A stretch of 64,000 nt of DNA from Prochlorococcus marinus subsp. marinus str. CCMP1375. GTDB taxonomy: Bacteria; Cyanobacteriota; Cyanobacteriia; PCC-6307; Cyanobiaceae. Below are positions 16,885 to 63,080 of this stretch, piece by piece. Both the position numbers and the translations under genes were made by a program. The notes under the pieces were generated by a model. It did no database searches, was not told the DNA's origin, and saw only the letters and a program-made list of their open reading frames with translations. The stretch is taken from positions 62,001-126,000 of the forward strand of contig NC_005042.1 of NCBI RefSeq assembly GCF_000007925.1, given 5' to 3'. Every line of letters begins with the position of its first letter. Position 1 is the stretch's first letter.

Positions 16885-19800
16885 TTGGTTTACATCAATC
16901 AGGTAGGACTAACTAATTTCAAGTCCTTTGGGGGTGCTATGACTATTCCCCTTGAGGAGGGGTTTACTGTCGTTACAGGTCCCAATGGTTCAGGGAAAAG
17001 CAATATCCTTGACGGAGTTTTATTTTGCCTTGGCTTAGCGACTAGTAGAGGAATGAGGGCAGAACGTCTTCCTGATTTAGTAAATAGTGCTGTTTTACGA
17101 GCAGGTAAATCTGCTGAGACTGTTGTCAGTGTGAAGTTTGATCTTTCAGATTGGCATCCTGATGCTGCTGAGGAGGGCTTAGAAATCCCTGAAGAAGGAC
17201 CTTGGATTAAACCTGGCCAGAAGGAATGGACAGTTACAAGACGACTTCGAGTGATGCCAGGAGGATCTTATAGTTCTTTTTATAGTGCAGATGGCGAGAG
17301 CTGTAATTTGCAGCAGCTTCAGACTCAATTAAGACGTTTGAGGATAGACCCTGAAGGTAGCAATGTAGTCATGCAGGGCGATGTTACTCGCGTTGTATCC
17401 ATGAGCAATAAAGACCGAAGGGGTTTGATAGATGAACTTGCTGGAGTTGCATTATTTGATAACAGAATTGAGCAAGCACGCCTGAAACTAGATGATGTAT
17501 TTGAACGTCAAGAACGTTGCAGAATTGTGGAGCAGGAGCTGCTTTCTTCAAAGCTACGCTTAGAGAAAGATTGTGAAAAGGCTCGTTTATATAAACAACT
17601 TAAAGAGCAGATGCAGTTAGGTAGAAAACAAGAATCAGTTTTAGTTTTTGAATTAGCTAAGAAAGATTTAGAAAATTTACTTTTACGTCAAAAGGATTTA
17701 ATTGAGAAGGAAGCTCGAGACCAGGATTTTGTTATCAAATTCAAAGAAAAAGTAAATGAATCAGATAAGAAATTACAAACACTTCAAGCAGAGGTTAAAG
17801 CTTTAGGTGAAGATAAATTGATAGCAATTCAAGGAGAAATTGCGGGGTTAGATAGTCAGGCACGTGAATTAGAACGCCAAGCTATTCAACATAAAGAAGA
17901 AGGTGAGAAACTAAAACTCAAAAGACAAGATATCAAAATTCTTCAAAATGAAGTTAGACAAGATAGTTTAAAAAAGACTAAGGAATTTCCTCAAAGTACA
18001 ATTGATTCTGCAGAGAAAAGGGTCAAGGATGCACAATCTGCGGTTGAAGTCTCACGCAGAAGACTGACAGATATTGCAGGTCGATCTGGCGTTTGGCTAG
18101 AAGAATACAAGGAGAGAACTGATATTAGACAAAAACTTCAATCTAAATTAAAACCATTACAAGAAGAACAGCAGAAATTACAGGAGAGATTGGTCCAAAT
18201 TAATGAACGTTTGGAAGAGCTTAGAATTGATCAGGATAGAGATATAATAGAAAATCAAAAATTAAATAAGGAATTAGAGGTTCTAGATGACGAGTGGCAA
18301 TCACTTTTAAAATTGATAGTTATTCAACAGGAAGAAATTGATAAGTTTGTGGATGAACTATCAATTCAGCAAAGAACTCGCTTGCGTTTAGAAAATGAAC
18401 AAACAAAAGTGGAAAAAGATATCGCTCGATTAGAAAGTAGAAAAGAAACATTACATGAAAGTAGAGGAACAGGTGCTTTAAGACTTTTACTTGAAGCTGG
18501 CCTAGAAGGAATCCATGGTCCTGTTGCTCATTTAGGAGAAGTCAAAAATGAATATCGACTTGCTCTTGAGGTTGCAGCAGGAGCAAGAATAGGTCAAATT
18601 GTTGTTGACGATGATTTAATTGCTGCTAAGTCAATTGAATTACTTAAAAGACGTAAAGCAGGGAGATTAACTTTTCTTCCATTAAATAAAATCAAAAATA
18701 GTTCGGGCAGTAATAAAAATGTTTTTAAGAGACCAAGTATTGATGAAAATTCCAATTGCAATAATGGCTTTATCGCTAAAGCAATTGATTTAATTGAATT
18801 TGATACTATTTATAAAGATGTTTTTAGATATGTATTTGGAGAAACCTTTGTCTTCAATGATTTACATTCTGCTCGTACTCAATTAGGAGTCTCTAGATCC
18901 GTCACGCTTGCTGGAGAATTAATTGAGAAAAGTGGAGCAATGACAGGAGGTAGTTTTTTAGGTAGGAGTAGTGCATTAAGTTTTGGAAGTAGTGACGAAA
19001 AAGATGATATCGAGCCTTTACGTCAAAAGTTGCTCGAGATCGGCGAGACCCTAGTGCAATCTAAAAAGGAAGAATCTCGCTTAATTAGCTGCTTAGATCA
19101 AGCTAGGCCAAAATTGAAATCACTCGAGAAAAAACAGACTTCTTTAGATGCTCAGCGTTCTGCTTTTAAGAGATCTAATGGACCTTTCTTAACTAGACAT
19201 AATGAACAAAAGGAACGTTTAATTTCTCTTAATAAGGCTAAGGAAGAGCATCAAAATCGTTTAGATCTAATTGCAGAATCAATTAAACCATTTGTAAATG
19301 ATCTTGAGATAATAGATGCTAAAGAAAAAGTTCCTCAAGCAGATAATTCCAATAGCAATATTAAGGAATTACAGGAAGATCTAAATAGTTCTGAAGAAGT
19401 TTTAGAAAGAGCAAAAGAGGAGCGTGATGATTTACTTAATCAGAAACGTCATGAAGAATTAGCTTTAGAAAGGCTTGAAGGCCAACAAAAATCTCTTTCA
19501 GAAGAAGAAGAAAGATTGCAAGAAGCGATTGATTTACTTACTAAACAGCATAAAAAATGGAAAGAAGAAAATCAGAATTTGCAAACTCATAGAGAAAAAT
19601 TAGATATTTTGAAAAAAACTTTAGAAACATCTTTTGGTGAAAAACGCCGAGCTAGAGATGCTGCTGAGCTTCAGTTAGCTAATTTCAGGCAAAAGTTTCA
19701 AGATTTGACATGGAAACTTGAGAGATTGCAAGATGATATTAAGGCTATTCATGAAGAGCTTCGTAGTGGAAATATACGTATTCAAGAATTAGAAAAACTT

Positions 19801-60082: not shown

Positions 60083-61708
60083 CTATAAAAGTCCAATGCA
60101 TGCTTCTTCATTTAATGATAAGTGATTTGGTAAGTTTTTTTCACTTAAGGCATTAGTATCTTTATCTTCACAATTTTGTAGTTTCTTAATACCTGTCTTT
60201 CTCTGTAAGGTAATTAGGTTTGTATTATAATCAGTGATAGATTTAATATGATTAACTTCTGCTTGAGTTAGGTCTCTTTGAGAAACTATAACCTCACGTT
60301 GAGTAGTAATTCCTGTTTTAAGTCTTAGTATAGATAATCTTAAAGACTCTTTTGAAGATTGTATTGCTTCATATGAGTTTTTTATACTTTCTTTAGATAT
60401 GTTTAATTTATAGAAAATCTCTTCCACTTCTTTTCTTATCTCAGTTTTTTTTAAAGCAATTCTTGCTTCTAATTCTTTCACTTTTTCTTTCTTTGCATTG
60501 TATCTTGCTTTGCTATAACCACCGTCGAATATGGGCCAATTAAATTGAAGCCCAAGAGTATTATTTTGACTATTAATACTATTATTAGTTCGAGGCGAAG
60601 AGACGAATGTTTCGCCTTTGGATAGGGAACTATCAAATGTATTATATATTGATACTGTTGGCTTTTTACCTGCTAGTGCAGCTTTTGCATTATTTTCATT
60701 CATTGATATTTGAAGTGAAATCTGATCTAGTTCTTTTCTATATTTAATAGCATAATTAATACTTTCTTCTAGAGAAATTTTCCATATCCCAATAACTTTG
60801 GGCTTAGATCCAATAATTGGAGTTGTATTTGGCTTTAGATTTAGTAATTGCGCCAATTTCCTTTGGTATATTTTTTTATTCCCTAATCGATCTGCAAGCA
60901 ATTGTTTGTCATTAGATAACTGTGTTTTAGCGTCAAGAACATCTAACTTTGAACCTATACCAGACTTAAATCTTATACGTGCTTCATTTAAGGAAATCTT
61001 TGAAGTTTTAATTGAATCTTTTGCTATTCGAATGTCTTGCAGTGACTTTTGTAAATTAAAAAATTGATTTTGAGCTTCTAAAACTAAGTCACGCATTTTA
61101 ATAGTATAAGCAATTCTTTGACGTTCAAATTCATCTCTAGCTGCGGCAATTTGAGGAATTCTTGCAGGATTAATGACATCCCATTTTAATGTTGCCTTCA
61201 AGCTTGCTTTTAGTTGGTTGCTTGATGTATTCGTAGATAATTTATTAAATGTATTACCTTTAAGATATTGAGGAAAACCTGTACTTGAGATGTCAAGATT
61301 AGGATACCAAGCAGATACTTCACTTTTTAATAAGTATCTTGTTTCTTCTATCCTTTTACGCATTATTTTAAGTTCATAACTATTTGCTTTAATTAGATCC
61401 TCTAAATCCTCTAATTTAATTACTTTATTATTTAGAATTTTAAATTTCTCTAGTGATTTTCTTACTTTTTTTGACCTATCGCTGCTAGCAATTTTTACTT
61501 TTTCTATTTGACCAATTAATTTGTGTTTACTATCTTTAATTCTTGCAGATGACGATAGAGTTTCATGATTTTTGATTGAATAATCACCTGAAGATGCCAA
61601 TCCGACATCCAGCATAATATTAGCTAGTGTAATGCCAATAAATACTTTAAAATAAATATTTTTCAAAGGACTAAAGTTTATATTAGCTATCATTTTCTTG
61701 TTCTCCAA
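60083..61708 (-). CDS. TolC-family outer membrane efflux protein
   Basis: The 541-residue protein starts with a signal-like segment (IYFKVFIGITLANIMLDVGLASS). Long helical repeats follow, typical of the outer membrane efflux protein domain. The two halves carry SYELKIMRKRIEETRYLLKSEVSAWYPNLDISS and YRKELDQISLQISMNENNAKAALAGKKPTVSIY, and LGLQFNWPIFDGGYSKARYNAKKEKVKE is the strand-helix junction. It forms a trimeric channel that exports proteins or small molecules. A start at 61693 (MIANINF) is also possible. No adaptor or inner membrane pump gene lies beside it. Its 5' end overlaps the end of the radical SAM gene. Confidence 0.9.
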   Translation of the reverse strand: MENKKMIANINFSPLKNIYFKVFIGITLANIMLDVGLASSGDYSIKNHETLSSSARIKDSKHKLIGQIEKVKIASSDRSKKVRKSLEKFKILNNKVIKLEDLEDLIKANSYELKIMRKRIEETRYLLKSEVSAWYPNLDISSTGFPQYLKGNTFNKLSTNTSSNQLKASLKATLKWDVINPARIPQIAAARDEFERQRIAYTIKMRDLVLEAQNQFFNLQKSLQDIRIAKDSIKTSKISLNEARIRFKSGIGSKLDVLDAKTQLSNDKQLLADRLGNKKIYQRKLAQLLNLKPNTTPIIGSKPKVIGIWKISLEESINYAIKYRKELDQISLQISMNENNAKAALAGKKPTVSIYNTFDSSLSKGETFVSSPRTNNSINSQNNTLGLQFNWPIFDGGYSKARYNAKKEKVKELEARIALKKTEIRKEVEEIFYKLNISKESIKNSYEAIQSSKESLRLSILRLKTGITTQREVIVSQRDLTQAEVNHIKSITDYNTNLITLQRKTGIKKLQNCEDKDTNALSEKNLPNHLSLNEEACIGLL

Positions 61709-63080
61709 TCAGATGCTCTACAAAGTCGTCTGGACCTAATATAATTTTTATTGGAATCTTTAGATTATTGGCTACTTCTTCAACAGTGACATCATCTAGA
61801 AATTTTAATTCATCATGTTTCAACATTACTGATGGCAGTAGAAGTTCATCCCCAAGCTCTTTATTTTTTAGTCCATTAATTATATCTTGACCAGTTAGTA
61901 ACCCAGTGACGACTTTCTCTTTGCCCCAATATGGGCTAGCTAGTCCAAAAACTTTGAGTGAAAGACCCTCAATTCTATTCATTCTTAAGGATATAGGGCT
62001 GAGAGCTTGCTCAACTAGTTTACCTACCACCCAACTACATGTTTTTTTCTTTGAAATTTTTTTGGGTAGATGTTGGGTAACTATATCCATGGCTTCTAGA
62101 AATGACCTGATGCTTCCTACTCCATTTTCTTCTTGCGGAAGATCTTCATAAGCCACCCTATGAGGAAGTTGTTTGTTTGCTATTAAATACCATTCATCAG
62201 AGAGCCATGCAAACCGACTTCCAATTTTAGATTGGAAGTCGGTTTGCATTCTCTCCACTAAACTAATGACTTTCTTTGCGCATTCTTCATTTACGGGTTG
62301 CAATCCATCTTGATCTGGCCTGAAGCGTGTAAGACCTACTGGAACCACTGCGGTTGAAATAATAGCCGGCCATGTTCCCTGCGCATATTGGAATAGATCA
62401 TTAATTGTTTTGGCGAGATTTTTACCATCATTAATCCCAGGGCATACAACTATTTGGGCATGCAATTGAAGTTTTTTTTCTGCAAACCATTTAATTTGTT
62501 CCATTATTAATCCTGCTTTATCGTTTTTTAATAATTGACTACGTAATTTTGAATCAGTGGCATGAACTGATACAAATAAAGGAGATAGTCGTTGTGCTTC
62601 AATCCTTTCCCAATCCTTTGGCATTAAATTAGTTAGCGTCAAATATGAGCCATAAAGAAAACTCATACGGTAGTCATCATCTTTTACATAAAGAGTTTGC
62701 CTGCGTCCTGCGGGCTGTTGATCTATAAAGCAAAACGAACAATTGTTATTGCATTGTTTGAGACCATCAAACAATGCTTCTGTAAAAATTAGTCCTAAAT
62801 CATCATCCAAATTTTTTTCGAGTTGAATATTATGCCTTTCGCCATTCTTATCTAAGACTTCAAGTTCTAATTCCTCTTCTGCAATTAAATATTTGTAATC
62901 AATCAGGTCTCGAGGCTTTACTCCATTAATTGTTAGCAATTGATCTCCAGCCTCAAACCCTAGATCCTCTCCGATTGACCCTGGATCTACAATTTTGATT
63001 AATGCTGGGTCTGGCTTGTAGCCCTTAGTTACCTCGGTTAAAGAAGGTATTGCAGAATTTGGAGAAGGTTCCTTCCACAC
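61683..63080 (-). CDS. Radical SAM / PDZ-like / DUF512 protein (TIGR03279-type)
   Basis: The 465-residue protein has a PDZ-like N-terminus (VDPGSIGEDLGFEAGDQLLTINGVKPRDLIDYKY, about 30-65). The radical SAM cysteine cluster is C-x3-C-x2-C at residues 110, 114 and 117 (CNNNCSFCFIDQQPAGRR), followed by a DUF512-like C-terminus (KVFGLASPYWGKEKVVTGLLTGQDII, LLPSVMLKHDELKFLDDVTVEEV). This is a conserved cyanobacterial family; its reaction is unknown, and relatives include DUF512 proteins of Clostridia. Codons 278 to 291 hold the 19-bp inverted repeat described separately. Confidence 0.9.
   Translation of the reverse strand: MWKEPSPNSAIPSLTEVTKGYKPDPALIKIVDPGSIGEDLGFEAGDQLLTINGVKPRDLIDYKYLIAEEELELEVLDKNGERHNIQLEKNLDDDLGLIFTEALFDGLKQCNNNCSFCFIDQQPAGRRQTLYVKDDDYRMSFLYGSYLTLTNLMPKDWERIEAQRLSPLFVSVHATDSKLRSQLLKNDKAGLIMEQIKWFAEKKLQLHAQIVVCPGINDGKNLAKTINDLFQYAQGTWPAIISTAVVPVGLTRFRPDQDGLQPVNEECAKKVISLVERMQTDFQSKIGSRFAWLSDEWYLIANKQLPHRVAYEDLPQEENGVGSIRSFLEAMDIVTQHLPKKISKKKTCSWVVGKLVEQALSPISLRMNRIEGLSLKVFGLASPYWGKEKVVTGLLTGQDIINGLKNKELGDELLLPSVMLKHDELKFLDDVTVEEVANNLKIPIKIILGPDDFVEHLIGEQENDS
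62207..62249. repeat. Perfect 19-bp inverted repeat inside the radical SAM gene
   Basis: ATGCAAACCGACTTCCAAT (62207-62225) is followed by TTTAG and then by ATTGGAAGTCGGTTTGCAT (62231-62249), the exact reverse complement. All 19 base pairs match, and the outer flanking bases do not pair. It is in frame with the minus-strand gene, encoding residues 278-291 (MQTDFQSKIGSRFA). Such a long perfect stem with a 5-base loop is not expected by chance in a 64 kb window. Confidence 0.97.

Follow-up and report, generated by a model that had tools for sequence, protein, structure and literature searches.

The genome of Prochlorococcus marinus SS120/CCMP1375 was analysed as a single contig of 1,751,080 bp. 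The window is the whole stretch of 64,000 nucleotides of this contig under study, and coordinates refer to it unless they are marked as genome coordinates. On the minus strand of the window, an ORF (gene position 61683–63080) encodes a protein of 465 aa that was attributed to the TIGR03279 family of radical SAM proteins using NCBIfam and Pfam matches (794 bits against NCBIfam TIGR03279). The protein contains the domains PDZ_6, Radical_SAM_2 and DUF512, the Pfam match to the last of these covering residues 246–447. An orthologue of the gene was found in 185 of the 201 genomes of the family, and a search of viral contigs revealed no relatives of it.

Inside this gene, a repeat search revealed two arms of 19 nt (62207–62225 and 62231–62249) that are 100% complementary and separated by 5 nt. 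In the gene sense, the 5' arm (ATGCAAACCGACTTCCAAT, 62231–62249, minus strand) encodes MQTDFQS and the 3' arm (ATTGGAAGTCGGTTTGCAT, 62207–62225, minus strand) encodes IGSRFAW. The spacer between them (CTAAA in the gene sense, 62226–62230, minus strand) lies within codons S284 and K285. The arms and the loop together encode residues M278–A291 (MQTDFQSKIGSRFA) and the first base of the W292 codon in frame on the minus strand, and these residues fall inside the DUF512 match. The hairpin sequence occurs only once in the genome. The repeat search and the translation thus confirmed what had been proposed from the sequence alone, namely a perfect 19-bp stem with a five-base loop in a radical SAM/DUF512 gene whose reading frame is kept.

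Folding of the stem region as RNA led to a predicted structure of -42.6 kcal/mol (z = -9.9). Beyond a 1x2 internal loop, the predicted fold adds an outer helix of 6 bp (GGAGAG/CUCUCU), the 5' side of which is located at 62251–62256 and the 3' side at 62199–62204 (both on the minus strand; GGAGAG/CTCTCT in DNA). A search of the stem region against Rfam did not assign it to any family, and the best match was at the chance level (E = 0.79). An intrinsic terminator was also considered and rejected: the stem is located in the middle of a gene and its flanks, TGGCTCTCTGATG and TCTCTCCACT, contain no T run.

The hairpin was the only perfect stem of at least 14 bp found in the window; the sequence-only reading had named many similar perfect 19-bp stems in such a search as a refutation. 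The next-best stem of the window is an imperfect inverted repeat of 19 nt (84%) with an 18-nt spacer at 18311–18366. The whole genome contains 72 perfect stems of at least 12 bp with a loop of up to 30 nt, and 27 of these are located entirely within ORFs of at least 80 aa (ORFs were chosen mechanically, and a few may not be genes). The 19-bp hairpin is the longest of these 27. The count of in-ORF stems also includes a 22-bp stem that reaches across the beginning of an 80-aa ORF of doubtful status, and the 19-bp hairpin is the longest stem within any credible ORF of the genome. As a control, all 1,651 ORFs were subjected to 25 codon shuffles within genes and 25 synonymous-codon shuffles. The longest stem in these 50 replicates was 16 bp, in agreement with the earlier claim that the hairpin is not expected by chance. 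In-ORF stems as a class are also in excess: 28 stems of at least 12 bp were observed against about 6 expected from the shuffles, and 10 of at least 14 bp against about 0.6; seven were at least 15 bp long.

To evaluate which arm is ancestral, codon alignments of 36 distinct orthologues were prepared, a tree was built using FastTree and the polarity of the arms was read by direct comparison with relatives. The mean identity to 11 relatives from the genus is 84% in the 3' arm and 55% in the 5' arm; the whole gene averages 71% and the 30 nt upstream 68%. The 3' arm encodes part of a conserved stretch, I-G-[ST]-[RN]-F-A-W-L-S-D-E-W-Y-L in most orthologues, whereas the stretch encoded by the 5' arm is loosely constrained ([LM]-Q-x-x-[YF]-x-x). 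The closest sister on the tree is Prochlorococcus sp. AG-409-L21 (L044). Its 3' arm, ATT GGA AGT CGC TTT GCA T, is identical to that of SS120 at 18 of 19 positions, and the SS120 5' arm matches the reverse complement of this sister arm at 18 of 19 positions as well. In the other direction, the sister 5' arm forms only 6 of 19 pairs with the SS120 3' arm, and the two arms of the sister pair with each other at 5 of 19 positions. The peptide encoded by the 5' arm is LQSRYEA in the sister and MQTDFQS in SS120. The hairpin was absent from all 36 orthologues, in which 5–14 of 19 positions pair. The asymmetry of 18/19 against 6/19, the low pairing in the sister and the lack of any orthologue above 14/19 show a one-way transfer from the 3' arm (the donor) to the 5' arm (the overwritten recipient). 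The sequence-only reading had named a single ancestral arm as the outcome indicating a template switch, and this is the outcome that the alignment gave. Note that one base of 19 differs from every relative in each arm; this count does not single out the 5' arm because the relatives are highly varied there.

The register of the arms tends toward complementarity across the family. Averaged over the orthologues, 8.97 of 19 positions pair, compared with 5.06 gene-wide, and the register ranks third among 1335 registers. Amino acids needed on the two sides tend to have partly complementary codons, so that a quasipalindrome stands at this site. Such a family-wide tendency suits a quasipalindrome substrate, which is known for template-switch mutagenesis in bacteria (PMC7202029), and the immediate SS120 parent may have been such a quasipalindrome, although the sister has only 5/19 pairs. 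In a distant relative (L024, genome G033), MQ..FQ and the rare CGG codon have arisen independently at the homologous site; its own arms pair at 11 of 19 positions and its 5' arm pairs with the SS120 3' arm at 15 of 19. This likeness can be taken as a sign that the site tends toward a quasipalindrome.

All these characteristics allow us to assume that the hairpin was very probably left by a template switch during replication, i.e. a quasipalindrome 'correction', in the SS120 lineage. What was found at the locus is a perfect inverted repeat with a short spacer, one arm of which is ancestral and the other its reverse complement. This explanation was also the first option of the sequence-only reading, and the conserved 3' arm and derived 5' arm support it. 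During replication, the polymerase would have taken the already copied sequence of the 3' arm as the template instead of the true template of the 5' arm, either through folding back of the nascent strand, which we consider the probable geometry, or through a jump onto the other strand, and would then have returned to the normal template. Nineteen bases would thereby have been replaced by the reverse complement of their neighbour, with the change of several residues. The outer 6-bp match may mark the end point of the switch, with its 5' side as a possible switch-back site, or may be a chance coincidence. Inversion of the spacer was rejected as a part of the event, as the inverted form TTTAG sets an in-frame TAG stop. 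The changed arm would have survived because the frame was kept, no stop was made and the pattern [LM]-Q-x-x-[YF], which covers the few residues under constraint, was retained, and the replacement was presumably neutral. A single event seems probable, with the limit that the nearest relative is about 0.5 substitutions per site away, and at this distance one event looks the same as several successive ones. In the donor arm, R289 is encoded by CGG (2.6% of Arg codons), and the third base of this codon differs from 11 of 11 genus relatives; therefore, either the donor changed before it was copied or a small part of the copy ran in the opposite direction.

The high predicted stability of the fold and the two intact arms without a mismatch could also be expected of an mRNA or antisense RNA hairpin selected in the SS120 lineage, for example for translation pausing, mRNA stability or as an RNase site. 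We consider this improbable: relatives lack the stem, no Rfam family corresponds to it, it occupies a mid-gene position where one arm is simply ancestral, and a recent event accounts for the perfect arms equally well. A conserved structured RNA element was rejected on the pairing of 5–14 of 19 positions in the 36 orthologues and the Rfam result. The functional mRNA hairpin and the protein-binding site that had been suggested from the sequence alone fail as conserved functions, since no relative retains the pairing. A two-step history, in which a stem made by a template switch was later recruited in the SS120 lineage as a functioning mRNA hairpin and is now held perfect in both arms by selection, is quite improbable.

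Hairpins are difficult to sequence and the analysis drew on one assembly of the strain, so fold-back synthesis in cloning or sequencing could be suspected. Such a sequencing or assembly artefact, also raised earlier, was nevertheless judged very unlikely because the derived arm preserves the reading frame and the [LM]-Q-x-x-[YF] pattern constrained in the family; other genes carry stems of a like kind as well. Codon choices under protein constraint could in principle have made the arms complementary by chance. The encoded peptides do favour pairing (a mean of 11.2 of 19 positions with the SS120 protein fixed and random codons), and the orthologue L019 has independently reached 14/19. However, 19/19 was obtained about once per 200,000 such draws, and none of the 50 shuffled ORF sets contained a stem above 16 bp, which makes chance convergence highly improbable. 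Finally, protein-coding palindromes of the mobile type exist, at least as cited in PMC6649704, but the alignment with orthologues shows neither an insertion nor an indel and the genome contains no second copy of at least 13 nt of an arm. Insertion of a mobile palindromic element of the Rickettsia type, or a protein-binding site, is therefore exceedingly improbable.

The putative template switch was compared with known systems. Quasipalindrome template-switch mutation is established in E. coli, including the thyA hotspot and the lacZ QP reporters (PMC7202029), in work of Ripley 1982 and of Dutra and Lovett 2006 as far as it is described there. As in E. coli, a putative imperfect repeat with a short spacer would have become perfect with one arm templating the other. 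Unlike the reporters, the SS120 case is deduced from a comparison of species and is fixed and function-preserving instead of a selected revertant. Coding genes of Saccharomyces also show products of template switching, among them REG2, where arms of 16 bp flank a 5-bp spacer and five amino acids were changed (PMC8604942). These cases share with SS120 a perfect coding stem on one lineage, several amino-acid changes and the 5-nt spacer; the SS120 arm differs in being longer (19 bp), belonging to a cyanobacterium, having no spacer inversion and having no close strain for dating. The mitochondria of Nematomorpha contain numerous coding palindromes of up to 284 bp, some of which are common to several species (PMC6649704). 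They are likewise perfect inverted repeats with both arms coding for protein, whereas the SS120 stem is single, short and specific to its lineage. The palindromic elements of Rickettsia, as cited in the same paper, are in-frame palindromes in bacterial genes and, in contrast to the SS120 stem, multi-copy insertions; the SS120 stem is neither inserted nor repeated. Thus, by the available tests, the stem belongs with the template-switch homogenisation of arms known from E. coli and from the coding genes of yeast, and it works in a like manner. The type of mutation is already known, and it has been published that inverted repeats are over-represented in the coding DNA of prokaryotes and that template switching explains this (PMC4060949). 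The SS120 stem is a new, fairly long but otherwise typical example. It offers a clean natural case from a free-living cyanobacterium, in which an apparent single mutation replaced several adjacent residues of an otherwise conserved enzyme, and clustered changes of this sort can be mistaken for signs of positive selection or for an RNA structure with a function.

Five other in-ORF stems, chosen for their length, were compared with genus orthologues; the asymmetry of their arms is given as a description without a formal test, and the gene names are a reading of the translations, except for the transporter. In four of the five, all perfect stems of 14–15 bp in conserved genes, one arm exceeds the gene-wide identity and the other is lower than or about equal to it. 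These stems are located in an apolipoprotein N-acyltransferase-like gene (genome position 1269133; identity of 0.68 for the 5' arm and 0.87 for the 3' arm, gene 0.66), a phosphoglycerate-mutase-like gene (genome position 491103; 0.75 and 0.57, gene 0.70), a hydrolase-like gene (genome position 1083390; 0.74 and 0.54, gene 0.68) and an ORF at genome position 749273 (0.73 and 0.58, gene 0.63). The fifth is an 18-bp perfect stem with a 16-nt loop in a membrane-transport (PF03547) gene (genome position 1112848–1112899; L113:18348–18399), with identities of 0.46 and 0.46, where the relatives are too variable to tell the derived arm. The excess of coding stems and the one-sided ancestry in most of the tested stems suggest that changes of several residues at once arise repeatedly through template switching in this small, streamlined genome. 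Analysis of GC skew placed the replication origin close to genome coordinate 1 and the terminus at around 0.94 Mb, and the window hairpin is compatible with fold-back on the leading nascent strand. Only three of the five donor-arm stems fit leading-strand fold-back by our reading, and no conclusion about the replication strand was therefore drawn.

Two observations were made in other genomes. In a partial genome (G190, contig C22), the same 362-codon gene fragment was found at both contig ends in opposite orientation (L169/L170), most likely as an artefact of assembly or amplification. In another Prochlorococcus species (G010), of which 0.6 Mb was examined, an AT-rich 19-bp perfect stem with a 4-nt loop is located inside a 325-codon open frame (L234:5470–5511).
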